Assembly: GCA_902557775.1 (NCBI GenBank)
Contig: CACEBD010000005.1
Coordinates: 1-49,413 of the forward strand
DNA length: 49,413 bases
Reading direction: 5' to 3'
Source: an uncultured Pelagibacteraceae bacterium
GTDB lineage: Bacteria > Pseudomonadota > Alphaproteobacteria > Pelagibacterales > Pelagibacteraceae
The position numbers and the translations under genes are program-made. Of this stretch, positions 8,250 through 36,917 are shown piece by piece. The notes beneath the pieces are model-generated. The model ran no database searches, was not told the origin of the DNA, and worked only from the letters and a program-made list of their open reading frames with translations. The stretch's first letter is position 1; each line of letters begins with the position of its first letter.

Positions 8250-9662
8250 ATGAATTTTAAAAGTATAAGCTTTTATTTAAGTTTATTTTGTTTTCCTATA
8301 AGTATATTAGCGTTTATAAATATTTTATACGCATCTTACTTTGACTATTTTTTAAGCATAAATTCTTATTTCGTTACTTTAACAGTTTCTTTGATTTTAG
8401 GATTTTTATTTTATTTTTTTGGTAAGAGTGGAACAAAAAAAATTAATTTTATAGATCAATTAATTTTAATAATTTTGGTTTATTTCTTAACAGGTTTCTT
8501 AATGTCTATACCCTTCTACCTAAGTAATTTTGAAGTTACTTTCATTAGTGCTTTGTTTGAAGCTATTTCAGGTTTAACAAGCACAGGTTTTTCGACATTT
8601 AAAAGTATAAAGTATTTAGATCCAACATTAATTCTTTGGAGGTCATCTTCACAGTGGATAGGAGGTCTATTTTTTTTAATCTTTTTGATTTTATTATTTT
8701 CTAATAAAACGTTCAATTATAAAATGACTAATCTTACTTTCTCTGGAGATAGTAATTTCAAGTCAGAAGAAAGCATAAAAAATAGTATATTAAGAATATT
8801 TATTATTTACAGTTTTTTAAGTTTTTTAATATTAGTTCTTTTAAGCATTTCAGAAATAAGATTATTTAATTCACTCAACCTTGCAATGACTTTAATTTCA
8901 AACGGTGGTTTTTTACCTTCAGATAGCTTAAATGAAATCATTAATTCAAATTTCCAAAAAATTATTTTAGCGCTTTCTTTAACTTTTTCTTTATTAAATT
9001 TTTATCTAATATTTAATATTTTCAATAAAAAAATTTTGCTACACCAGCATAAAGAGGATTTTTATCTATTATTTTTAGCATTTATTTTAATTATATTAAT
9101 TTATTTTAATAATTTTGATGGCTTAAATGTAATAATCAGTGTTATTAGTAGTCTTGCAAATTCTGGTATCACTTTATTAAAAACTGAAAACAACCTTAGT
9201 TTATATTTTTTATTAATAACAATTATTGGAGGCTCGTTAATTTCAAATTCATCAGGAATTAAAATGAGCAGATTCTATATTCTCTTAAAAATTACTGCAT
9301 CCGAAATTATAAAGTTGATAAGTCCAAATAGCGTTATAAACAAGACTATCTTTAATACTGACAACAAAATCACGGACGAAAATGTTAGGATATCTTTTTT
9401 AATATTTATTTCTTTTTTTTTAAGTCTGTTCATTTTATCTAGTTTACTAGTTTTTGATGATATTGGTTTTGAAAGATCTTTTAAATTATCTATTCTTGCG
9501 TTAACAAATACTGTTAATTCTGAAATGTATAGTTTGCAAAGTATAAATTTTGCAAATCTATTAACATCTTCAAAAATTAGTTTAATTTTATTTATGATAA
9601 TTGGAAAAATTGAGCTAATATCAATTCTTTTAATTTTCAAAAAAATATTATTTAAAGATTAA
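8250..9662 (+). CDS. trkH: TrkH-family potassium transporter membrane subunit
   Basis: 470-aa polytopic membrane protein, the K+ translocating partner of TrkA. TrkH/KtrB pore-loop motifs are visible: LFEAISGLTSTGFSTF, then MTLISNGGFLPS, then VISSLANSGITLL, and a fourth, weaker loop near ILALTNTVNSE. Most of the chain is hydrophobic helices, and the composition is rich in Phe, Leu, Ile and Ser. The fourth loop lacks the usual glycine-rich filter (LTNTVNSE), which is common in the asymmetric TrkH fold. The stop overlaps the next start by one base (TAATG). Confidence 0.92.
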   Translation: MNFKSISFYLSLFCFPISILAFINILYASYFDYFLSINSYFVTLTVSLILGFLFYFFGKSGTKKINFIDQLILIILVYFLTGFLMSIPFYLSNFEVTFISALFEAISGLTSTGFSTFKSIKYLDPTLILWRSSSQWIGGLFFLIFLILLFSNKTFNYKMTNLTFSGDSNFKSEESIKNSILRIFIIYSFLSFLILVLLSISEIRLFNSLNLAMTLISNGGFLPSDSLNEIINSNFQKIILALSLTFSLLNFYLIFNIFNKKILLHQHKEDFYLLFLAFILIILIYFNNFDGLNVIISVISSLANSGITLLKTENNLSLYFLLITIIGGSLISNSSGIKMSRFYILLKITASEIIKLISPNSVINKTIFNTDNKITDENVRISFLIFISFFLSLFILSSLLVFDDIGFERSFKLSILALTNTVNSEMYSLQSINFANLLTSSKISLILFMIIGKIELISILLIFKKILFKD

Positions 9663-10708
9663 TGTCAAAAATTGTTATTATTGGTGCAGGTGCTATGGGC
9701 TCAGCTTTTGCTTTACCTTGTTTAGACAATGATCATGAAATTAATATAGTTGGCACTCACTTAGAGAATGATTTCATAGATCAATTAAAAAGAAGTGATA
9801 ATTTACATCCTGGATTAAACACAAAAATTCCTAAAGAAATTAAAATTTTTAAATTCAAAGAATTTGATGAGTTATTAAAATCTAACGTAGACTTAATTGT
9901 TCTTGGTATAAGTTCTAAAGGTATCGAATGGGTTGCTGATCAATTAAGTAGACTTTTTAAAGATAATAAAATTCCAAAACTATTGATGCTTACAAAAGGA
10001 CTAAGTATTCATAATAATCAATACGAACTATTAGTAGATAAACTTGAAAGATTATTAGATGAAAGAGGGATAAAAAAAGTTGACATTTCTGCAGTAGGAG
10101 GACCTTGTTTAGCTACAGGATTAGCTAACAGAGTTCATTCAAGCGTTGTTATTGCAAATAAGGACGTTCAAACTGCCAAAAAAATAGCAGACATGCTTAA
10201 TACAAACTATTATCATACATCTCATTCAGACGATCTGAATGGAGTAGAGGTTTCAGCTGCAATAAAAAATATTTTTTCGATGGCTGTAGGTGCAGCGAAG
10301 GGTTTATGCAGTCAAAACATATCTAATGAGGCTAGAGAAAAAAACTATTTAAATACTGCATCAGCTTTAATTAAACAATCAATTCATGAAATGGAAATTT
10401 TTGTCGAGCACCTTAACGGTAAAAAAGAGACCGTCAAAGGTTTGGCTGGATTAGGAGATCTTTACGTTAGTTCGGGCGGTGGAAGAAACGCAAAAATGGG
10501 ATCTTACATTGGAGAAGGATTAACTTTTTCTGAAGCAAAAAAAACAAAAATGGAAAAGGTTACAGTTGAAGGAGCAGACCTTGCAAAAGAAATTGCAAAA
10601 AAGGTTAATGAAGATTTTGATCAAAAAAAATTACCTTTAATGCTGGGGATGATCAATGCTATTGTTGAAGACAAAAAACTAGAATTTAATTGGGAGGCTT
10701 TTAGGTGA
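9662..10708 (+). CDS. gpsA: Glycerol-3-phosphate dehydrogenase (NAD(P)), GpsA-like
   Basis: 348-aa cytoplasmic dehydrogenase interconverting glycerol 3-phosphate and dihydroxyacetone phosphate. The Rossmann motif IVIIGAGAMGSAFA is at 4-17. Further GpsA landmarks are LMLTKGLS, the SAVGGPCLATGLANR loop, and the catalytic lysine segment EVSAAIKNIFSMAVGAAKGL. GLAGLGDLYVS follows in the C-terminal domain. The N-terminal half is more divergent than usual. The 4-base GTGA overlap with glpK suggests it serves glycerol breakdown here, replacing a flavin-linked GlpD that is not seen in the window; that direction is inferred. Confidence 0.88.
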   Translation: MSKIVIIGAGAMGSAFALPCLDNDHEINIVGTHLENDFIDQLKRSDNLHPGLNTKIPKEIKIFKFKEFDELLKSNVDLIVLGISSKGIEWVADQLSRLFKDNKIPKLLMLTKGLSIHNNQYELLVDKLERLLDERGIKKVDISAVGGPCLATGLANRVHSSVVIANKDVQTAKKIADMLNTNYYHTSHSDDLNGVEVSAAIKNIFSMAVGAAKGLCSQNISNEAREKNYLNTASALIKQSIHEMEIFVEHLNGKKETVKGLAGLGDLYVSSGGGRNAKMGSYIGEGLTFSEAKKTKMEKVTVEGADLAKEIAKKVNEDFDQKKLPLMLGMINAIVEDKKLEFNWEAFR

Positions 10709-12186
10709 AAAAATTTATTATTTCAATTGATGCAGGAACAACTTCTAATAGATCAATTTTATTCGATATAAAAGGTAATCCAGTTTTTTCTTCACAAAAA
10801 GAATTTACTCAATATTTTCCAAAAAGTGGTTGGGTAGAACATAATGCAGATGAAATTTGGAAAACAACAATAAAAACTTTAAAAGACGTAATACAAAAAG
10901 CCAGAAGTTTAAAAGGTAAAATTTTAAGTATTGGAATAACTAACCAAAGAGAGACTACAGTTTTATGGGATAAAAAAACAGGAAAACCAGTTTATAAAGC
11001 TATTGTTTGGCAAGATAGAAGAACTGAAGAATTTTGTAAAAAGTTAAGAAAGCAAAATAAGGATACAATGGTTTTTAATAAAACTGGCCTTTTGATAGAC
11101 TCATATTTTTCAGGTACAAAAATTAAGTGGATTTTAGATAATGTCCCAAAAGCACGACAGTTAATGAATAAAAAACAATTGTTATTTGGAACAATTGATA
11201 GTTTTTTAATTTGGAGACTTACAAAAGGAAAAGTTCATGCAACGGATGCAACAAACGCAAGTAGGACAATGATATATAACATTTCCTTAAATAAATGGGA
11301 TGATGCAATATTAAATCTTCTTAAGATTAAAAAACATATTTTGCCAGAGGTAAAAGATTGTGCAGATGATTATGGTCAAACCCATCCGTCTCTAACTGGT
11401 AAACCAATTCCAATAAACGGAGTAGTAGGTGATCAACAATCAGCAACAATTGGCCAATGTTGTTTTGAACCTGGTTCTTTAAAAAGTACTTACGGAACCG
11501 GCGCTTTTGTATTATTAAATACTGGTTCTAAAAAAATTTACTCAAAAAATAGACTATTAACAACTATTGCTTACAGAATTAATGGAAAGACAACATACGC
11601 AATGGAGGGGTCTATTTTTATAGCTGGTGCTGGTGTTCAATGGTTAAGAGATAGAATGAAATTTTTCAAGAAAGCATCTGAAACAGAAAAAATAGTTAAA
11701 TCACTTCAAAACAACAATGATATTTATTTAGTTCCAGCATTCACTGGATTAGGAGCTCCTTATTGGGAAGCTAACGCTAGAGGAGTTTTAAGCGGCATTA
11801 CTAGAGATACAAGTCCTAAAGAAATAATTAGAGCTACAATCGAGGCAGTTGCTTATCAAACTCATGATCTGTTTGAGGCTATGAAACATGACGGTTTGAG
11901 ACCTAAAATTGTAAAAGTTGATGGTGGGATGGTAATGAATAATTGGTTTTCACAATTTTTATCTGACATAGTGAATGTAAAAGTATTGAGACCTAAAGTA
12001 CAAGAAACTACTGCTTTAGGAGCAGCCTTTATGGCTGGTTTACGGATAGGGATATACAAATCATTGAAAGATATTTCAAAAAATTGGAGTTTAGATAAAA
12101 AATTTTCGCCTAAAATGAAAAATAATTCTAGAACAATTCTAATTAACGGCTGGGAAAAAGCAGTCAAGAGAGCCTTAATAAATTAA
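10705..12186 (+). CDS. glpK: Glycerol kinase
   Basis: 493-aa FGGY-family kinase that phosphorylates glycerol to sn-glycerol 3-phosphate. Visible motifs are SIDAGTTSNRSILFD at the N terminus, SIGITNQRETTVLWDK, IVWQDRRTE, GDQQSATIGQ, STYGTGAFVLLNTG and VDGGMVMNNWFSQ. Length matches GlpK (about 495-505). The start is a GTG overlapping the gpsA stop (GTGA). It is followed after 106 bases by the glycerol-type ABC importer. Confidence 0.97.
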   Translation: MKKFIISIDAGTTSNRSILFDIKGNPVFSSQKEFTQYFPKSGWVEHNADEIWKTTIKTLKDVIQKARSLKGKILSIGITNQRETTVLWDKKTGKPVYKAIVWQDRRTEEFCKKLRKQNKDTMVFNKTGLLIDSYFSGTKIKWILDNVPKARQLMNKKQLLFGTIDSFLIWRLTKGKVHATDATNASRTMIYNISLNKWDDAILNLLKIKKHILPEVKDCADDYGQTHPSLTGKPIPINGVVGDQQSATIGQCCFEPGSLKSTYGTGAFVLLNTGSKKIYSKNRLLTTIAYRINGKTTYAMEGSIFIAGAGVQWLRDRMKFFKKASETEKIVKSLQNNNDIYLVPAFTGLGAPYWEANARGVLSGITRDTSPKEIIRATIEAVAYQTHDLFEAMKHDGLRPKIVKVDGGMVMNNWFSQFLSDIVNVKVLRPKVQETTALGAAFMAGLRIGIYKSLKDISKNWSLDKKFSPKMKNNSRTILINGWEKAVKRALIN

Positions 12187-12292: not shown

Positions 12293-14026
12293 ATGTTTAA
12301 AACATTGAAGAGTATTTTAGCTGTTGCTGTTTCAATTTCTCTTTTAACTATTTCTAACGCTGTAGCTGATGGTCACATGGCTGCAATTAAGAAATGGTCA
12401 AATGGTGAGTTTAGTCTTTCAACAATTTCTGCAAAAGAAAGAGAGAAAGAACTTAATTGGTTTCATGATGCTGCAAAGCCGTTCAAAGGAATGGAAATAA
12501 ATGTATTATCAGAAACAATACCAACTCACGAATATGAATCAAAAGTTTTAACAAAAGCTTTTGAAGAGATAACTGGAATTAAAGTTAATCACCAGTTACT
12601 TGGAGAAGGAGAGGTAGTACAAGCTGTACAAACTCAAATGCAAACTGGAAGAAACTTATATGATGCATACATCAATGACTCTGATTTGATCGGTACGCAC
12701 TCAAGACTTCAGTTAGCAGTAAACTTAACAAAGTGGATGAAAGGTGAAGGTAAAGATGTAACTTTACCAACATTAGATATCGATGATTTCATCGGTAAAT
12801 CATTTACTACAGGTCCAGATGGTGATTTATATCAATTACCTGACCAACAATTTGCTAACCTTTACTGGTTCAGAAAAGATTGGTTTGACAGACCAGAAAT
12901 CAAAAAAGGTTTCAAAGCTAAATACGGATACGATCTAGGTGTACCAGTAAACTGGTCTGCTTACGAAGATATCGCTGAATACTTTACAAAAGACGTAAAG
13001 AATATCGACGGTGTTAGAGTATACGGTCACATGGACTACGGTAAGAGAGCTCCAGACTTAGGATGGAGAATGACTGACGCGTGGTTATCAATGGCTGGTG
13101 CAGGTTCAGTTGGTAAACCAAATGGTGTACCAGTTGACGAGTGGGGAATAAGAATGGAAAAAGGTTCTTGTAACCCAGTTGGTGCTGACGTAGCAAGAGG
13201 TGGGGCTGCGAATGGTCCTGCTGCCGTATATGCAATCAGAAAATGGGACGAGTGGTTAAGAGCTTATGCACCTCCAGGTGCTGCAGCGATGGACTTCTAT
13301 CAGTCTCTGCCAGCTTTATCATCAGGAAACGTTGCACAGCAAATTTTCTGGTATACAGCATTCACGGCATCAATGGTTGCTCCAAAGAGTACTGGAAACA
13401 AAACAGTTGATGATAACGGTAATCCTTTATGGAGAATGGGACCATCACCAAAAGGTCCTTATTGGGATGAAGGTATGAAGCTTGGTTATCAAGATGCTGG
13501 ATCATGGACTTTATTTAAGTCTACTCCAGTTGATAGAAGAAAAGCTGCATGGTTATACGCTCAGTTCGTAGTATCAAAAACTGTTGATCTTAAGAAAAGT
13601 GATGTTGGTTTAACTATCATTAGAGATAGTACAATCAACCACAAACACTTTACGAAGAGAGCTCCAAAACTTGGCGGACTTGTAGAATTCTACAGATCTA
13701 AAAACAGAGTATTGTGGTCACCAACAGGTATTAATGTTCCGGACTATCCGAAACTTGCACAAATCTGGTGGCAACAAATTGGAGATGTGAACTCAGGTGC
13801 GTTTACTCCACAACAAGCTATGGATCGTCTTGCAGAAGAGATGAACTTAGTTATGTCTCGTATGGAAGCTGCTGATAAAGCAAATAATACATACGGTGGA
13901 TGTGGTCCAAGATTATCTAAGCCAAAAGGAGCGGCTTATTGGTTGAAACAACCAGGATCGCCAAAAGCTAAACGTGATGAGAAACCTAAAGGTAAAACAG
14001 TTCCATTCGAAAGAGCTTGGAAGTAA
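12293..14026 (+). CDS. glpV: Glycerol ABC transporter binding protein, GlpV-like
   Basis: 577-aa periplasmic binding protein with an N-terminal signal peptide (about residues 1-25, ending SNAVADG). It is larger than usual (about 420 aa) for carbohydrate binding proteins and matches the size and context of GlpV from the rhizobial glpSTPQUV glycerol importer. The C-terminal half has tryptophan-rich segments (VPDYPKLAQIWWQQIGD). It lies between glpK and the importer genes and is followed by a stem-loop with a T run. It uses more C-ending codons (TAC, AAC, GAC, TTC) than its neighbours, suggesting strong expression. Glycerol as ligand is inferred from family and context. Confidence 0.87.
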   Translation: MFKTLKSILAVAVSISLLTISNAVADGHMAAIKKWSNGEFSLSTISAKEREKELNWFHDAAKPFKGMEINVLSETIPTHEYESKVLTKAFEEITGIKVNHQLLGEGEVVQAVQTQMQTGRNLYDAYINDSDLIGTHSRLQLAVNLTKWMKGEGKDVTLPTLDIDDFIGKSFTTGPDGDLYQLPDQQFANLYWFRKDWFDRPEIKKGFKAKYGYDLGVPVNWSAYEDIAEYFTKDVKNIDGVRVYGHMDYGKRAPDLGWRMTDAWLSMAGAGSVGKPNGVPVDEWGIRMEKGSCNPVGADVARGGAANGPAAVYAIRKWDEWLRAYAPPGAAAMDFYQSLPALSSGNVAQQIFWYTAFTASMVAPKSTGNKTVDDNGNPLWRMGPSPKGPYWDEGMKLGYQDAGSWTLFKSTPVDRRKAAWLYAQFVVSKTVDLKKSDVGLTIIRDSTINHKHFTKRAPKLGGLVEFYRSKNRVLWSPTGINVPDYPKLAQIWWQQIGDVNSGAFTPQQAMDRLAEEMNLVMSRMEAADKANNTYGGCGPRLSKPKGAAYWLKQPGSPKAKRDEKPKGKTVPFERAWK

Positions 14027-14094: not shown

Positions 14095-15159
14095 ATGAGC
14101 TTAGAATTAAAAAACGTAGAAAAAAAAATAGGGTTAGATACTCATATTTATTCAACAAATTTAAAATTAGAAAAAAATACAATTAACATTCTCTTAGGGT
14201 CTACTTTAGCCGGAAAGACGACTTTAATGCAAATTATGGCTGGCCTAGATAAACCAACATCAGGTGAGATTTGGTTTAACAATGAGAATGTGACAGGTAT
14301 GAAAGTTCAAAAAAGAAATGTCTCAATGGTTTACCAGCAATTTATTAATTACCCCAATTTCACAGTTTATGACAACATTGCATCTCCACTAAAAATTACT
14401 GGAGTAAGTTCAGATGAAACAAAACAAAGAGTTGGGAAAGTCGCAGAATTACTTAAACTCTCTGGAATGTTGAATAAAAAACCAAATGAGCTTTCTGGAG
14501 GACAACAACAAAGAACTGCTTTAGCAAGAGCACTTGTAAAAGACTCAGACTTAATTCTTTTAGATGAACCACTTGCAAACTTAGATTTTAAATTAAGAGA
14601 GGAATTGCGAGAAGAATTACCAAAATTATTTGAAAATAGAGACTGTATTGTAGTTTACGCAACCACAGAACCCTCAGAAGCACTACTCTTAGGCGGTAAT
14701 ACCGCAACGTTACAGGAAGGTAGGATTATTCAATATGGAAAAACTTTAGATACTTATAATAAACCTAACTCTCTGGTTTCAGCTCAGGTCTTTAGTGATC
14801 CACCAATGAATATTGCTAAAATAAAAAAATCAGGAGACCAGTGTTCATTTTTACAAAATGACATTCAATGGAAAACTAAATTAAATATCAAAGATGGTGA
14901 ATATAAAGTAGGTATACGACCCCACAATATTACCACGTATAAAGAGGGCAACAATACACTTGAGATAAAAGGTAAAGTTTTAATTTCTGAAATTAGTGGC
15001 TCTGAGAGCTTAATCCACTTTACAAACGGAAATTTGAATTGGGTTTCTTTATCTAACGGAGTTTTTCAAAAAAATGTTGGTGATGAGATGAATTTGTACA
15101 TGAATACAGATGAGTTTGTTTATTTTGATCAAAATGAAAGGTTAGTATCTAATGGCTAA
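14095..15159 (+). CDS. glpS: Glycerol importer ATPase GlpS-like, no switch His
   Basis: 354-aa ABC ATPase with C-terminal TOBE region, one of two non-identical ATPases of the importer. Walker A is present (GSTLAGKTT), as are Q-loop MVYQQ, a consensus signature LSGGQQQR and Walker B LILLDEPLANLD. The switch (H-loop) histidine is missing: VYATTEP stands where the partner has VYVTHDQ, so T191 replaces His. It overlaps glpT by 8 bases. The substitution suggests that its own Walker A site is the weaker site of an asymmetric dimer. Confidence 0.88.
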   Translation: MSLELKNVEKKIGLDTHIYSTNLKLEKNTINILLGSTLAGKTTLMQIMAGLDKPTSGEIWFNNENVTGMKVQKRNVSMVYQQFINYPNFTVYDNIASPLKITGVSSDETKQRVGKVAELLKLSGMLNKKPNELSGGQQQRTALARALVKDSDLILLDEPLANLDFKLREELREELPKLFENRDCIVVYATTEPSEALLLGGNTATLQEGRIIQYGKTLDTYNKPNSLVSAQVFSDPPMNIAKIKKSGDQCSFLQNDIQWKTKLNIKDGEYKVGIRPHNITTYKEGNNTLEIKGKVLISEISGSESLIHFTNGNLNWVSLSNGVFQKNVGDEMNLYMNTDEFVYFDQNERLVSNG

Positions 15160-16216
15160 AGTTACATTAAAAGGTTTAAGCCATAGTTATTTAAAAACTC
15201 AGTCTTCAGATGCTGACTGGGCAATCAGAGGAGTAGACATTGATTGGAATGATGGTGGCGCTTACGCTTTATTAGGCCCTTCAGGTTGTGGAAAGACAAC
15301 ATTGTTAAATATTATTTCTGGATTAATTACACCAACTAAAGGCGATATATTATTTGATGATAAAGTTATTTCAGGGTTAAATCCTGTAGAGAGAAATATT
15401 GCACAGATTTTTCAATTCCCGGTTATTTATGACACGATGACAGTGTATGATAATTTAGCTTTTCCTTTAAGAAATAGAAAAATTCCAGAGGAAGAAATCA
15501 AAGTAAAAGTTCACGAGATAGCTGAAATGTTAGAATTATCTTCAACATTAAATAATAGAGCTTCTGGTCTAACTGCAGATGGTAAACAAAAAATTTCACT
15601 AGGGCGTGGATTGGTAAGATCAGATGTAAATGCTATTATGTTTGATGAACCATTAACAGTAATCGATCCACATTTGAAATGGATTTTAAGATCTAAACTT
15701 AAAGAACTTCATCAAAAGATTAATAGAACAATGATTTATGTTACACACGATCAAACAGAGGCTTTAACATTTGCTGATCAAGTAGTTGTAATGCATGAAG
15801 GTCAAATTGTTCAAACAGGAACACCAGTAGATTTGTTTGAAAAACCAAAGCATACATTTGTTGGATATTTTATTGGTTCACCAGGCATGAATGTTTTACC
15901 TTGTCAAATTAAAGGAAATGATGTGATCGTTAATGGAAAAAAAATAGAAACTCACCAACAAATTAAAAAAAGTAATTTTAACAAGACAGAGGTTGGTGTG
16001 AGACCTGAATTTATATCTTTTAGCAATGAAGGAATTCCAGTTAAAATTTTATCGGTAAGCAATACTGGAAGGCATAAAATTGTAGATACTAAAAGTGAAA
16101 CCGGAAAAATTAAAATTATTGCAAAATCTAATGAAGATATACCTGCAGGATCTGCATTTTTAAAATTTAAAAAAGAATATACTTACACATATGGAGATAG
16201 TTGGATAATTGAATGA
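15152..16216 (+). CDS. glpT: Glycerol importer ATPase GlpT-like, degenerate signature
   Basis: 354-aa ABC ATPase with TOBE region, partner of GlpS. Walker A (GPSGCGKTT), Walker B (AIMFDEPLTVID) and switch histidine H199 (YVTHDQTEAL) are canonical. The signature is degenerate: SGLTADGKQK (138-147) in place of LSGGQQQR. This is the mirror image of GlpS, so a dimer would have one consensus ATP site and one degenerate site. Not the same as the MFS-type G3P transporter that shares the name GlpT. The end overlaps glpP by 4 bases. Confidence 0.88.
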   Translation: MAKVTLKGLSHSYLKTQSSDADWAIRGVDIDWNDGGAYALLGPSGCGKTTLLNIISGLITPTKGDILFDDKVISGLNPVERNIAQIFQFPVIYDTMTVYDNLAFPLRNRKIPEEEIKVKVHEIAEMLELSSTLNNRASGLTADGKQKISLGRGLVRSDVNAIMFDEPLTVIDPHLKWILRSKLKELHQKINRTMIYVTHDQTEALTFADQVVVMHEGQIVQTGTPVDLFEKPKHTFVGYFIGSPGMNVLPCQIKGNDVIVNGKKIETHQQIKKSNFNKTEVGVRPEFISFSNEGIPVKILSVSNTGRHKIVDTKSETGKIKIIAKSNEDIPAGSAFLKFKKEYTYTYGDSWIIE

Positions 16217-17079
16217 ATAAAACAATAAATCAAAAAGCATGGTTCTTTGTAATACCAGTATTTGTGCTGGTGGCCTTCAATGCCATTATTCCATTAATGA
16301 CAGTAGTAAACTATGCTTTCCAGGAAACTTTTGGGAATAATGTTTTTATGTGGGAAGGCACAAGATGGTTTAAACAAATCATGTTATCCGAAAGATTTCA
16401 CGCATCACTTGGTAGACAATTTTTATTTACATTTATAATTTTATTTATTCAAATTCCATTAGGAATAGCTATTGCGCTTACTATGCCTAAAGAGGGAATA
16501 GGAGTACCTGTTTGTTTAGTTTTAATGTCGATGCCTCTTTTAATTCCATGGAACGTTGTTGGAGCTATGTGGAATATTTTTGCGTTACCAGATATTGGTT
16601 TCTTGGGTCATTCACTTAATGCTTTAGGATTTGATTATAACTTTACTCAACAGATTGGTGATGCTTGGTTCACAACTATACTAATGGATGTATGGCATTG
16701 GACATCTTTAGTAGTTTTATTGTCTTATGCAGGATTAAGATCTATTCAACCTGCTTACTATCAAGCAGCAGAAATTGATGGAGCTAGTCGTTGGGCAATT
16801 TTTACGAAAATCGAATTACCTAAAATGAAAAAAGTATTAACGATTGCAATACTTTTAAGATTTATGGACAGTTTCATGATTTATACAGAGCCATTTGTTT
16901 TAACTGGAGGAGGTCCAGGCAATGCTACTGCATTTTTATCTATAGACTTAGTTAAAATGGCATTAGGACAGTTTGATCTGGGGCCAGCTGCAGCAATGTC
17001 ATTGATATACTTCTTTATAGTACTTTTAGTTTGTTGGGTATTCTACACATTAATGATGAGAAATGAGGAGAAATCATGA
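16213..17079 (+). CDS. glpP: Glycerol importer permease GlpP-like
   Basis: 288-aa inner-membrane permease of the binding-protein-dependent sugar transporter type, with about six hydrophobic helices. The ATPase-coupling EAA loop is readable as YYQAAEIDGASRWAIFTKIELPKMKKVL. It starts with a 4-base ATGA overlap with glpT and ends with a 4-base overlap with glpQ, so ATPases and permeases are translated as a unit. Confidence 0.88.
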   Translation: MNKTINQKAWFFVIPVFVLVAFNAIIPLMTVVNYAFQETFGNNVFMWEGTRWFKQIMLSERFHASLGRQFLFTFIILFIQIPLGIAIALTMPKEGIGVPVCLVLMSMPLLIPWNVVGAMWNIFALPDIGFLGHSLNALGFDYNFTQQIGDAWFTTILMDVWHWTSLVVLLSYAGLRSIQPAYYQAAEIDGASRWAIFTKIELPKMKKVLTIAILLRFMDSFMIYTEPFVLTGGGPGNATAFLSIDLVKMALGQFDLGPAAAMSLIYFFIVLLVCWVFYTLMMRNEEKS

Positions 17080-17876
17080 AGAAAGCTAAGTGGGTAGTTC
17101 CTACAATTTATATTATTTTCTTGATGCTTCCAATTTATTGGTTGCTAAACATGTCTTTTAAAACGACAACTGAGATTATAAACACTTACACATTATGGCC
17201 TCAAGAATTTACATTAGATAATTATAAAAAAATTTTTACCGACAGTACCTGGTATACTGGTTATCTTAATTCTATTTATTACGTAGTGATGAATACCGTG
17301 ATTTCAGTGGCAGCTGCACTACCTGCAGCTTACGCTTTTTCAAGATATAAATTTTTAGGGGATAAACATTTGTTTTTCTGGCTATTAACAAACAGAATGG
17401 CTCCACCAGCAGTATTTGCTTTGCCATTTTTTCAATTTTATTCATCAGTAAACTTGTTTGATACTCATGTGGCTGTAGCTTTATCACATTGTTTGTTTAA
17501 TATTCCTTTAGCAGTTTGGATTTTAGAAGGATTTATGTCTTCTGTGCCAAAAGAACTAGATGAAACAGCTTATGTTGACGGTTATTCATTTTGGAGATTT
17601 TTCTTCAAGATATTTATTCCAACAATCACTGCAGGCATAGGTATTACAATGTTTTTCTGCTTCATGTTTTCTTGGGTTGAATTATTATTAGCAAAAACAT
17701 TAACTGCGGTGGCAGCAAAACCGATTGCCGCAACAATGACAAGAACCGCCAGTACATCAGGATATGAATTAGGACTACTTGCTGCTGCAGGAAGTTTGAC
17801 AATTATTCCTGGTGCTATCGTAATTTATTTCGTAAGAAACTATATAGCTAAAGGATTTGCATTAGGAAGAGTATAA
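17076..17876 (+). CDS. glpQ: Glycerol importer permease GlpQ-like
   Basis: 266-aa second permease of the importer, MalG-like in size and layout. It has an N-terminal helix (VPTIYIIFLMLPIYWLL) and the EAA loop LDETAYVDGYSFWRFFFKIFIP. It overlaps glpP by 4 bases and glpU by one base (TAATG). Not related to glycerophosphodiester phosphodiesterase, which shares the symbol GlpQ in enterobacteria. Confidence 0.88.
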   Translation: MKKAKWVVPTIYIIFLMLPIYWLLNMSFKTTTEIINTYTLWPQEFTLDNYKKIFTDSTWYTGYLNSIYYVVMNTVISVAAALPAAYAFSRYKFLGDKHLFFWLLTNRMAPPAVFALPFFQFYSSVNLFDTHVAVALSHCLFNIPLAVWILEGFMSSVPKELDETAYVDGYSFWRFFFKIFIPTITAGIGITMFFCFMFSWVELLLAKTLTAVAAKPIAATMTRTASTSGYELGLLAAAGSLTIIPGAIVIYFVRNYIAKGFALGRV

Positions 17877-18232
17877 TGATGTTTAACGTTTTAAATGCTG
17901 CAACATGGGGTGATATGGCTAAAGAAAAAGATAAAAGCTTTTTCGAATTCGAATTTATCACTTGGATGGCATGGACTTGGCAGACAGCTGCATTTTTTTT
18001 ATTCATAGCTTTATGTTTAACAGCAATGGTTATCTGGGAAAAAAAATCACCAGGAGGAAACCCAAGAAAGGGAATTTTGGGATTAGACACAACTAGAGGC
18101 GATAGATTATTTATTTCATTGCTAGGCAGTGCATTCATTCATTTATTTTGGTTGGCGTTGGTTGGAAGCGTTTTATGGATTGCAACGATAATTTGTGTTG
18201 GTTATGCTGTAATTGTTTTTAAATACGTATAA
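17876..18232 (+). CDS. glpU: DUF2160-type small membrane subunit, GlpU-like
   Basis: 118-aa membrane protein with hydrophobic helices at about 29-50, 82-100 and 101-117. Conserved landmarks are FITWMAWTWQTAAFF and GLDTTRGDRLFISLLG. This family accompanies the rhizobial glycerol importer, where it is named GlpU; its exact role is not known. It has a one-base overlap with glpQ and abuts the methyltransferase gene with no gap. Confidence 0.82.
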   Translation: MMFNVLNAATWGDMAKEKDKSFFEFEFITWMAWTWQTAAFFLFIALCLTAMVIWEKKSPGGNPRKGILGLDTTRGDRLFISLLGSAFIHLFWLALVGSVLWIATIICVGYAVIVFKYV

Positions 18233-25154: not shown

Positions 25155-26771
25155 ATGACAAAATATAATATATGGTTTTTTGGATCACTAATTGTAGCTG
25201 CAGTGGTAGCTATGCCTATTGTTACAGTTTTTTTTAGCTTTTTTAATGAAACAAGTAATTATTTCTATATTTTAAAAGAAACTTTTTTGCTTGATTATAT
25301 TTTTAACTCAATAACAATCTTATTATTCGTAATTTTTTTTACTTTTATTCTTGGTATTTTTTCTGCATACTTTGTATCATTTTATGATTTTCCTTTATCC
25401 AATTTTTTTAGTTGGGCACTGATTTTATCATTCGCAGTTCCAGGTTATATTTATGCATTTTCAATAATTGCTTTTTTTGAAAATTATGGCACGGCTTTTT
25501 CATTATTAACATTTTTATTTGGTGAAAATAATTATAATCCTGTTATTCCAAAAATAGATGGATTAATTGGAGCTATAATATCTATATCATTTTCTTTGTT
25601 TCCATATGTTTATGTATTGACGAGAGCATCATTTTATTATCAATCGAATAATTATATTGAAGTAGGAAAAAATCTTGGTCTTTCATCAAAAGAAACTTTT
25701 TTAAGAATAGTTTTGCCTTCAGCACGACCAGCGATCATTGCAGGTTTAGCTTTAGTATCAATGGAATGCTTGTCAGATTTTGGAACTGTATCATTTTTTA
25801 GTGTGAATACATTGACTACTGGAGTTTATAATTCGTGGCTGTCATTTGATGACTTAAATACAGCTAATCAAATATCTTTTATATTACTTATTTTTATTCT
25901 CTTACTTTACTCAATAGAAATTTATTCAAGACAAGAGGCAAAATATCATCAACCAGGCCGGGGTTTTAAGTCAATTACTAAAATTAAACTAACTGGAAAA
26001 AAGTCTATAATTCCAGTCGCTATTTGTTCTTTGATCTTTTTATTGAGTTTTATTTTTCCAGTTTCTCAAATGATTTATTGGACTGTGAAATTTCCAAAAT
26101 ATATTCAAGACATTGATATATTTAAAATTAACTTAAATACTCTGATGTTAGTGGGATTAGCTAGTGCCTTTATTGTGATAGTTTCTCTATTTATAAATTA
26201 TGGAAGCAGAATATCAAAAAGTAAAATTCTAAATTACCTTACAACTTTTTCCATTTCTGGTTATGCAATACCAGGAGTTATTCTAGCAGTTGCTTTTATA
26301 ACTTTTTTCTCAAATTTAAGTGATTTTTTTACAAATAATTTTAATTTTAAGACCTCAAAAAGTCTATTTATTGGATCTATTTTTGGATTATTATTGGCAT
26401 ATTTTATAAGATTTTTTTCATTATCTTTTAACGGAATAAAATCAAGTTATGAAAAAATTAATAATTCCATCGACGAAAGTGCCTATCTTCTTGGTTATTC
26501 TAAGGTTAATACATTTTTAAAAATCCATATTCCATATTTAAGCACAAATATAATTTTGATAATTTTGTTAATTTCTCTTGAGGTGATTAAAGAATTACCC
26601 ATGACAATGATTTTAAGACCTTTCAATTTTGAAACATTTGCAACTCAGGCTTATATATATGCCTCCCAAGATTTACTTGAAGCAGCTGCGTTACCATCTC
26701 TTTTTTTAATATTTTGGTCTACAATTTTGATACTTCTATCATCTAGATATATACTTTCAAAAAAAAATTAA
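25155..26771 (+). CDS. fbpB: Ferric iron ABC transporter permease (two fused domains)
   Basis: 538-aa permease with two tandem transmembrane domains, as usual for FbpB/SfuB proteins. Each half has an EAA-type coupling loop: YIEVGKNLGLSSKETFLRIVLPSARPAI in the first and IDESAYLLGYSKVNTFLKIHIP in the second. About 12 hydrophobic helices are visible. It follows the second inverted repeat and precedes the ATPase gene by 13 bases. Confidence 0.92.
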   Translation: MTKYNIWFFGSLIVAAVVAMPIVTVFFSFFNETSNYFYILKETFLLDYIFNSITILLFVIFFTFILGIFSAYFVSFYDFPLSNFFSWALILSFAVPGYIYAFSIIAFFENYGTAFSLLTFLFGENNYNPVIPKIDGLIGAIISISFSLFPYVYVLTRASFYYQSNNYIEVGKNLGLSSKETFLRIVLPSARPAIIAGLALVSMECLSDFGTVSFFSVNTLTTGVYNSWLSFDDLNTANQISFILLIFILLLYSIEIYSRQEAKYHQPGRGFKSITKIKLTGKKSIIPVAICSLIFLLSFIFPVSQMIYWTVKFPKYIQDIDIFKINLNTLMLVGLASAFIVIVSLFINYGSRISKSKILNYLTTFSISGYAIPGVILAVAFITFFSNLSDFFTNNFNFKTSKSLFIGSIFGLLLAYFIRFFSLSFNGIKSSYEKINNSIDESAYLLGYSKVNTFLKIHIPYLSTNIILIILLISLEVIKELPMTMILRPFNFETFATQAYIYASQDLLEAAALPSLFLIFWSTILILLSSRYILSKKN

Positions 26772-26784
26772 TATAATCTAATAA

Positions 26785-27855
26785 ATGACCAACAATTTTT
26801 TTGAGATTAAGAATGGTAATTTTACCGCAAGTGAAAAAAATAAAGTAAATAATGTAGATCTAGTCATAGAAAAACAAGGAGAGATTATTTCTTTGCTAGG
26901 TCCTTCTGGAATTGGCAAAACCACAATACTAAGAACGATTGCTGGTTTACAAAAACTTAGTGGAGGTAAAATTAAACTTAGAGATACTATTTTAGCCTCT
27001 GATGAAATCCATATTGAGCCAGAAAAAAGAAATGTGGCTCTTTCTTTTCAGGATAACTCTCTTTTTCCTAATTATAAAGTTATTGACAACATAAATTTCG
27101 GAGAAAAAAGATCTAATGGCCATGGATCAAATATAGATGTTAAAGAAATAATCAAATTATTAAGAATTGAACCCATATTGGAAAAATATCCTCATCAAAT
27201 AAGTGCTGGAGAAGCTCAAAGAGTCTCATTAGCTAGATCATTAATGTCAAAACCTGATTTATTATTATTGGATGAACCATTCTCAAATATTGATCAAAGT
27301 TTAAAAGAGGAAATACAGGTGTCTGTTAAAAAACTTTTAAAAAGAATAAATTTAACAACCATTATCGTTACTCATGACTCATATGAAGCTTTTTCGATGG
27401 CTGATAAATGTGGAATTATTTTAGACCAAGAATTAAAGCAGTACGATGTACCTTATAATGTTCACCATGAACCAAATTCAATTGATGTTGCTAATTTTTT
27501 AAATAAAGGAATTTTTATAGATGTTCAGGTCTTAGATAGCGAGTGTGCAGTACATAGATTAAAACATGATGAACTTGGTGAAATTAGAGGAAAATTATCA
27601 AACAATTTTCCATCGGGATCAAAGGTAAAATTACTTTTACAACCTGAAGATCTAATCCACGACGACCAAAGTAAATTAAAATTAGAAGTAGTAGACAGAA
27701 AGTTTAGAGGAACTAATTTTATATACACTCTTAAAACAAAAAAAGGAGAACATTTACCTGTATTTGTTCACTCTCATCATATTCATCAACATGAGAGATC
27801 CGAACAATTTGGTGTAAAATCTCCGATTTATATTGACCACCTAGTATGTTTTTAA
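26785..27855 (+). CDS. fbpC: Ferric iron ABC transporter ATPase
   Basis: 356-aa ATPase completing the iron importer. Walker A GPSGIGKTT, Q-loop LSFQDNSLFP, signature ISAGEAQR (a mild variant of LSGGEQQR), Walker B LLLLDEPFSNID and switch histidine in VTHDSYEAF are present. The C-terminal third is the usual TOBE-like regulatory region. It is followed by tRNA-Arg after 19 bases. Confidence 0.92.
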   Translation: MTNNFFEIKNGNFTASEKNKVNNVDLVIEKQGEIISLLGPSGIGKTTILRTIAGLQKLSGGKIKLRDTILASDEIHIEPEKRNVALSFQDNSLFPNYKVIDNINFGEKRSNGHGSNIDVKEIIKLLRIEPILEKYPHQISAGEAQRVSLARSLMSKPDLLLLDEPFSNIDQSLKEEIQVSVKKLLKRINLTTIIVTHDSYEAFSMADKCGIILDQELKQYDVPYNVHHEPNSIDVANFLNKGIFIDVQVLDSECAVHRLKHDELGEIRGKLSNNFPSGSKVKLLLQPEDLIHDDQSKLKLEVVDRKFRGTNFIYTLKTKKGEHLPVFVHSHHIHQHERSEQFGVKSPIYIDHLVCF

Positions 27856-35840: not shown

Positions 35841-36917
35841 CTAAATAATACCATGATTCTTATCAGGTTTTATTCTATTTTTATCATTATCGAATAAATA
35901 TAACTTATTTTTTGGGAAGTAAATTGTAATATCTTTATCTGTTATATTATTAGTGCTTTTAATTCTAATTTCCTTATCATTCAAATGCGAATATATAATT
36001 TTTTCTGATCCCAAATTTTCAATAAGATCAACATTAATTTTAACAGAAAATTCACTTTTTTTTTCTAAAGAAATGTCTTCTGGTCTTATACCTAAATAAA
36101 GACCATTTTCAAAATTAAAATTTTCAATTTTAATTTCATTATTGAATAATCTGAATGTATCTTTGTTTATGATATCTTCAGTATCAACTTTAAAAATATT
36201 CATTTTTGGGTTTCCAATAAATTCAGCGACAAAAATATTATTTGGATTATTGTAAATATCATCAGGTGTTCCAGTTTGTTCAATTTTTCCTTTGTTCATA
36301 ATTACAATTTTATCAGCTAATGTCATAGCCTCAATTTGATCGTGGGTTACATAAACAATGTTACTCTTGAGTTTTTTATGTAGTTTTGAAATTTCAACTC
36401 TCATTTCTGATCTTAGGGCAGCATCTAGATTAGAAAGAGGCTCATCGAATAAAAATAATTTAGGATTTCTAGTTATAGCTCTTCCAATAGCAACTCTTTG
36501 TCTTTGACCTCCAGAGAGTTCCCTTGGTCTCCTATCTAAAAGTTCCTCGATTTTTAAGATTTTTGCAGCTTCAATTACTTTATTTTTAATATCATTTTTT
36601 GAAATTTTTTCTGATTTAAGACCAAAAGAAATGTTTTCGAAAACACTCATGTGAGGATACAAAGCGTACGATTGGAAAACCATTGCAATTTGTCTTTTTG
36701 ATGGAAGTAAATCATTTAATAGATTATTTTCTAAATGTATTTTCCCATTATCTATTTTTTCTAACCCAGCTATCATTCTGAGCAGTGTTGATTTTCCGCA
36801 ACCAGATGGACCCAACAATACTAAAAATTTTCCTTTTTCAACCTCTAGGTTAAATTTACTAATTACATTGTTTTTATCGAAAGATTTATCAATATCTTCA
36901 AATTTTAAAAAAGTCAT
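35841..36917 (-). CDS. Carbohydrate ABC importer ATPase (UgpC/MalK type)
   Basis: 358-aa CUT1-type ATPase. Walker A GPSGCGKST, Q-loop VFQSYALYPHMS, signature LSGGQRQR, Walker B LFLFDEPLSNLD and switch histidine in VTHDQIEAMTLAD are all canonical. The C-terminal TOBE region contains LYLGIRPEDISLE. It is divergent from the binding protein gene at 37038 across 120 bases, which together with permeases there makes one split transporter locus. Confidence 0.9.
   Translation of the reverse strand: MTFLKFEDIDKSFDKNNVISKFNLEVEKGKFLVLLGPSGCGKSTLLRMIAGLEKIDNGKIHLENNLLNDLLPSKRQIAMVFQSYALYPHMSVFENISFGLKSEKISKNDIKNKVIEAAKILKIEELLDRRPRELSGGQRQRVAIGRAITRNPKLFLFDEPLSNLDAALRSEMRVEISKLHKKLKSNIVYVTHDQIEAMTLADKIVIMNKGKIEQTGTPDDIYNNPNNIFVAEFIGNPKMNIFKVDTEDIINKDTFRLFNNEIKIENFNFENGLYLGIRPEDISLEKKSEFSVKINVDLIENLGSEKIIYSHLNDKEIRIKSTNNITDKDITIYFPKNKLYLFDNDKNRIKPDKNHGII

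Follow-up and report, generated by a model that had tools for sequence, protein, structure and literature searches.

The genes glpS and glpT lie in a 49,413-nucleotide stretch of DNA from an uncultured Pelagibacteraceae bacterium (contig CACEBD010000005.1; referred to as the window) and encode two ATP-binding cassette (ABC) ATPases that are asymmetric at the residues forming their ATP sites. The two proteins are probably obligate partners in a heterodimer driving a glycerol importer of the MalK type (CUT1, type I); one composite site of this heterodimer would hydrolyze ATP, and the second would be a conserved site of special character. The asymmetry was noted in a preliminary description of this DNA and is confirmed here, and its interpretation is supported as far as sequence reaches. 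Beyond that description, both chains retain the catalytic glutamate, conservation extends to most of the altered residues, and a homologous ATPase pair occurs in a second importer.

Complementary motif changes in GlpS and GlpT

The glpS (14095-15159) and glpT (15152-16216) open reading frames overlap on the + strand, and each encodes a 354-residue MalK/UgpC-type ABC ATPase. Motif coordinates are those of the codons read directly from the DNA and are all on the + strand. GlpS has a canonical signature, LSGGQQQR (14491-14514), and has T191 (ACA, 14665-14667) at the H-loop position in place of the switch histidine. GlpT has the switch histidine, H199 (CAC, 15746-15748), and its signature is degenerate, with LTADGKQK (15569-15592) replacing LSGGQxxR. 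The alignment places H199 of GlpT opposite T191 of GlpS, and L140-T-A-D-G144 of GlpT opposite L133-S-G-G-Q137 of GlpS. The A-loop position is I12 in GlpS (14128-14130) and the aromatic Y13 in GlpT (15188-15190). Walker A reads GSTLAGKT in GlpS (14197-14220) and GPSGCGKT in GlpT (15275-15298). The Walker B aspartate and catalytic glutamate (DE) are present in both chains, at 14563-14568 in GlpS and 15644-15649 in GlpT, and are followed by the D-loops LANLD (14572-14586) and LTVID (15653-15667).

An ABC site is composed of Walker A and B and the A-, Q- and H-loops of one chain together with the signature of the other, as set out in PMC7756269. By this rule a single site takes in the changed GlpT signature and the changes that GlpS shows at its Walker A, A-loop and H-loop positions, which upholds the earlier proposal that the two losses share a site and adds the A-loop change to it. 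On this assignment the altered site is GlpS Walker A, with I12 and T191, facing the GlpT signature, and the complete site is GlpT Walker A, Y13 and H199 facing LSGGQ of GlpS. The D-loops sit at the center of the interface and are assigned to neither site. Neither homodimer would own a consensus site, a GlpS dimer being without the histidine and a GlpT dimer without the signature, and the heterodimer has exactly one. Of the sequence evidence, this speaks most strongly for a heterodimer that is obligate.

Conservation of the split

Homologs of GlpS were collected from 142 genomes of the class, from 398 genomes of the phylum and, with a divergent query, from 385 genomes of the class. A named genome collection (the best 80 loci of a longer list) and plasmids (four matches examined) were also used. 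In the phylum search a wide gap separated orthologs (E ≤ ~1e-125) from paralogs (E ≥ 5e-91), and all 85 orthologs were examined. Pairs were drawn from these 85, from 13 class-search matches, the 80 loci of the named collection, the 4 plasmid matches and 18 of the regions from the divergent-query search, which gave 24 new loci. The ATPases of 236 loci were classified by similarity and then aligned; loci found through DUF2160 matches (L191-L220) were left out. An ATPase scoring best to GlpS or GlpT was found at 176 of the 236 loci, and both were present at all 176. The count of distinct pairs given below selected GlpS by Thr or Ser at the H-loop; separate checks without a motif filter gave no violation of the split in the 176 loci. 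An earlier tally listed 61 of 190 loci without a pair; these were mostly paralogs and other ABC proteins, and two of the loci (L147 and L177) fit the pattern when read. Removal of identical copies left 152 distinct pairs (151 by the core segment alone, at which two genomes are identical).

Alignment of the homologs at the H-loop and signature returned no histidine in GlpS and no LSGGQ in GlpT among the 152 pairs. The GlpS H-loop residue is Thr in 141 and Ser in 11, a hydroxyl residue in every pair, and GlpT has His in all 152. LSGGQQQR is present in every GlpS. Few GlpT replacements depart from the form L-[TSAG]-[APV]-D-x-K-Q-K. Asp stands at the second signature glycine in 149 of the 152, the following Lys and Gln are invariant, and the last Lys is kept in 140 (otherwise L in 6, T in 5 and I in 1). 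The A-loop residue is Tyr in every GlpT; in GlpS it is Val in 135, Phe in 2, His in 1 and another non-aromatic residue in 14. All GlpS chains carry GxTxxGKT at Walker A, with its GKT, and L[AV]NLD at the D-loop; LTVID is found in all GlpT chains. The Walker B Asp and catalytic Glu are kept in both chains of every pair. The combination put forward earlier as the only consensus site, GlpT Walker A and H199 with the GlpS signature, is complete in all 152.

The split extends across Alpha-, Beta- and Gammaproteobacteria and one Streptomyces plasmid. A plasmid copy in Rhizobium leguminosarum RCAM0626 (locus L248) has the same ATPase motifs. Related MalK/UgpC-type ATPases served as paralog controls. 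These are the chains scoring above 200 bits to the UgpC-like protein of the window and taken from the same loci, lower-scoring chains being left out; all 58 are intact (SGGQ, His, aromatic A-loop and Asp-Glu). OppD/OppF-type nucleotide-binding domains (NBDs) have an SGG signature and His in 32 of 32 stretches from five genomes, a count made by eye from rows with the Walker A/Walker B pattern in 30 of the loci listed, with one spurious row set aside.

Three other accounts of the motif changes were excluded. A local pseudogene or sequencing error is excluded by the conservation of the key motifs in 152 pairs with no violation, and a feature confined to SAR11 by the homologs outside SAR11. A split common to every two-gene importer is excluded by the intact OppD/OppF-type domains of the five genomes read.

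Strict co-occurrence bears on whether GlpS and GlpT are partners at all. One of them could be a regulator, or could pair with a different MalK-type ATPase such as the intact UgpC-like protein encoded in the same window (35841-36917). MalK-type ATPases can serve several importers, MsmX being an example, and such sharing together with the nearby intact chain is what this alternative has in its favor. The presence of both proteins at 176 of 176 loci, their matched trees and losses that complement each other, so that exactly one consensus site is left, speak against it and make it very improbable.

Functionless drift in a redundant subunit, with the importer running as if it had one weak subunit, is the alternative on which residue conservation bears. 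Some altered positions do vary: the fifth signature residue of GlpT is A in 53, E in 32, Q in 32 and G in 15 of the 152 pairs, and the GlpS A-loop is Val only in the 135 noted above. Most altered positions, however, are strongly conserved over three proteobacterial classes, the Streptomyces plasmid and two different importers, so drift is an improbable explanation, if less remote than the absence of a partnership.

Family membership and common origin of the pair

Both proteins match ABC_tran (PF00005; cut-off 25) at 105.2 bits for GlpS and 78.2 bits for GlpT, with Walker A, Q-loop and Walker B present. Full-length UgpC matches (GlpS residues 2-349, GlpT residues 1-334) indicate that the C-terminal OB-type regulatory domain is present as well, and matches to solved MalK-type chains span residues 3-347 of GlpS and 24-343 of GlpT. 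The Pfam domain PF17912 is recorded for GlpT at 27.1 bits against a cut-off of 27, with no such match in GlpS. Scores to the UgpC subfamily model NF008653 are far below its curated cut-off of 432 bits (GlpS 240.5, GlpT 285.1). The pair shares the domain plan of MalK and UgpC (CUT1). Both sites of the MalK homodimer are intact, and the related chains used as controls are intact without exception, whereas GlpS and GlpT are split.

A quick tree was computed without the motif columns from 86 rows, covering 30 of the 152 pairs and 26 of the 58 paralogs. In it GlpS and GlpT each fall on one side of a branch, with Shimodaira-Hasegawa-like approximate likelihood ratio test (SH-aLRT) values of 99 and 100, and the paralogs are apart (94). 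Pairwise identities of GlpS correlate with those of GlpT (r = 0.85 for 76 of the 152 pairs). The pairs come from one origin, and their agreement therefore demonstrates selection, not repeated invention.

A divergent branch of seven of the 152 pairs comes from a different type of operon, and the split is kept in all seven. This operon encodes an alcohol dehydrogenase (of the zinc type in L249, according to Pfam), a binding protein, two permeases and two ATPases. It was seen in Kaistia, Ponticoccus, Ensifer, a Streptomyces plasmid and the genomes G030, G675 and G663 (loci L052, L245, L246, L247, L249, L251 and L252; L246 begins inside the first permease). The Streptomyces locus, from plasmid records, is the one Actinomycetota locus examined and represents the sampling outside Pseudomonadota; a second Streptomyces match was returned as well. 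G663, a genome of the same family as the window, carries both the second importer and the glycerol operon. In the Kaistia locus, the binding protein and permeases of the second importer share 22-28% identity with GlpV, GlpP and GlpQ. Since a homologous pair is found in two importers, the sequences indicate that the ATPase pair is a module either older than both importers or passed between them.

Predicted function of the two sites

The sequences, their conservation, the shared operon and the matched GlpS and GlpT trees are the observations from which we infer a heterodimer, a single hydrolyzing site and the nucleotide state of the other site. GlpS and GlpT would together power the importer formed by GlpV, GlpP, GlpQ and the DUF2160 protein. 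ATP turnover would take place at the site where LSGGQ of GlpS meets four elements of GlpT: Walker A, the A-loop Tyr, His199 and the catalytic Glu. The second site would combine Walker A and the catalytic Glu of GlpS, with Thr or Ser for His, and the L-T-A-D-x-K-Q-K of GlpT. It probably still binds nucleotide, because the Walker A Lys and the Glu are kept. An Asp that replaces Gly near the γ-phosphate, together with loss of the His, is expected to impair hydrolysis in ABC proteins, and for this reason the second site would hydrolyze slowly or never. Conservation of most replacement residues suggests a maintained clamp or switch and not a decaying site.

In an alternative reading, the heterodimer hydrolyzes ATP at both sites. 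The chemistry of the second site would then use the Glu without the His, and LTADxKQK would substitute for LSGGQ. It draws on the catalytic Glu and the Walker A Lys and Thr kept in GlpS in all 152 pairs, and on a replacement motif whose Asp (149 of 152) and Lys (152 of 152) are conserved. The expected effects of the Asp substitution and the missing His count against it, as does the loss of the aromatic A-loop residue from GlpS, and hydrolysis at two sites is considered unlikely, although it is the most plausible of the alternatives to one hydrolyzing site.

A model of a GlpS/GlpT ortholog pair, built as a read-through fusion, has a mean predicted local distance difference test (pLDDT) score of 82.8 and a predicted template modeling (pTM) score of 0.68. 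Its GlpT half superposes on Escherichia coli MalK chains with Z of 35-37, consistent with a MalK-type fold. Foldseek aligns the same fusion model to two-NBD chains across 637-666 columns (TMt 0.65-0.76, root mean square deviation 5.3-12.1).

Several points weigh against the one-site heterodimer. The catalytic Glu, the loss of which has been called a hallmark of a degenerate site, is kept in GlpS, and slow hydrolysis there is possible. The fifth residue of the replacement motif varies widely. Given their common origin, the 152 pairs do not count as independent events, and a single event would bring the two losses into a shared site with a chance probability of about one half. A similar split in the LivF/LivG-like importer ATPases, described next, makes the arrangement less special.

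Comparison with other asymmetric ABC proteins

LivF and LivG are the ATPases of branched-chain amino acid importers. LivF/LivG-like pairs were scanned at 32 loci (30 distinct places). Thirty of these loci ranked highest in a longer list drawn from 80 genomes (L300-L329), and two are from the genome of the window (L268 and L269, contig C3). The same complementary split is present at all 31 loci that have both chains. LivF-like chains keep [LM]SGG[EQ] and have Gln at the H-loop (VEQNA); LivG-like chains keep the His and have the signature [LF][PAS][YF]G; both keep the Glu. These proteins belong to a different ABC family from GlpS and GlpT, and in LivG the second signature Gly is kept. The two cases suggest an importer style of asymmetry in which the Glu is retained and the His and signature are given up. 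At a Roseibium locus (L057:11313-12777, - strand), neighboring ABC ATPases have LSGGQ with Gln at the H-loop in one chain and LSHGQ with His in the other; by sequence they are possibly a Liv- or urea-type pair.

The CUT2 importers RbsA and NupO also have one degenerate ATP site, according to PMC11466899. In these proteins both NBDs are part of a single fused chain, and the second Walker A Lys is reportedly lost, together with the second Walker B acids in NupO, whereas GlpS and GlpT keep the Walker residues that RbsA and NupO have lost. The preliminary description considered the split, familiar from heterodimeric exporters, notable in an importer. That view is softened because CUT2 importers and LivF/LivG-like pairs are comparably asymmetric.

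Composite sites of which one follows the consensus and the other is degenerate are described for ABCB2/B3 (TAP), TM287/288 and CFTR in PMC7756269, and the exporters among them are precedents for such a motor. Loss of the catalytic Glu is given there and in PMC7544095 as a hallmark of the degenerate site in exporters. These systems are exporters or, for CFTR, a channel, and their catalytic Glu is commonly changed, whereas in GlpS it is kept. GlpS/GlpT is therefore likened to the degenerate-site exporters and is not filed with them, the Glu being present in 152 of 152 GlpS chains. Among the papers listed in a literature search that covered few subscription titles, none treats ATPase asymmetry in glycerol importers. 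GlpS/GlpT is predicted to be a heterodimer of MalK-type importer ATPases that combines a consensus site with a conserved non-consensus one and is common to two importers; asymmetry of this kind is itself known.

A broader generalization can be offered tentatively, with the balance somewhat against it. Importers may have an asymmetric ATP site of their own, in which the His is lost from one chain and LSGGQ from its partner, with the Walker A Lys and the Glu kept in both. Such a site would have arisen at least twice, in the GlpS/GlpT clade (the glycerol and the alcohol-dehydrogenase-linked importers) and in LivF/LivG, and would hydrolyze one ATP per substrate while the second nucleotide is held as a clamp.

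Whether ABC importers hydrolyze one or two ATP per molecule transported is an old question. In GlpS/GlpT, which is related to MalK, evolution appears to have produced a one-site machine that diverse bacteria conserve. As a natural heterodimer with differing sites, it makes the question accessible to point mutations. The conserved replacement motif favors the view that a degenerate site can be a maintained component instead of a relic. Occurrence of this pair in marine SAR11-type genomes would be relevant to what glycerol uptake costs in energy at sea.

Operon setting

Glycerol uptake by R. leguminosarum VF39 is reported to use the GlpSTPQUV ABC system, and the same system is not essential for growth on glycerol in C. 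metallidurans, both according to PMC7912956. The set is complete in the window, with all genes on the + strand: the glycerol kinase gene glpK (10705-12186), which ties the operon to glycerol; glpV (12293-14026), encoding the substrate-binding protein (SBP_bac_1); glpS and glpT; the permease genes glpP (16213-17079) and glpQ (17076-17876); and a gene for a small DUF2160 membrane protein (17876-18232). The VF39 system likewise has two ATPases, two permeases, a DUF2160 protein (presumably U), a binding protein and glpK. Gene order differs between the two, with glpV before glpS in the window. The importer of the window corresponds to GlpSTPQUV; glycerol transport is predicted for it and is reported only for R. 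leguminosarum.

Orthologous GlpSTPQUV sets occur at the 31 glycerol-type loci of the named collection (L021-L051), the glpK or glpV end not being reached in all. GlpS, GlpT and GlpP are consecutive at all 31, and GlpQ and DUF2160 come next at 30; L045 shows nothing past GlpP. Among the matches listed, the closest named relative is an uncultured Pelagibacteraceae contig with identical gene order and 79% identity in GlpS, which makes a SAR11-type source for the window probable. A search for DUF2160 made without reference to the ATPases was positive in 56 of 299 genomes, and all 56 also carry a GlpS ortholog (the two lists were compared by eye).

The permease side of the importer is asymmetric as well. 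The EAA loop of GlpP contains AAxIDGA, and that of GlpQ reads DETAYVDG, a conserved altered form (DETA..DG). Permeases of the second importer type likewise have EAA loops with AA.IDG and DE[TM]A..DG.

Adjoining glpK is a gene for an NAD-type glycerol-3-phosphate dehydrogenase (9662-10708), the sole PF07479 match in the genome, which is 82% complete. A GlpD-type DAO_C domain was not found in this 82% complete genome, and glycerol breakdown may proceed through the NAD-type enzyme. Farther along the window, another ABC ATPase (26785-27855) departs from the consensus in its signature (ISAGE) and has Ala as its A-loop residue, with the His kept; its gene adjoins one for a 538-residue permease-type protein (25155-26771).

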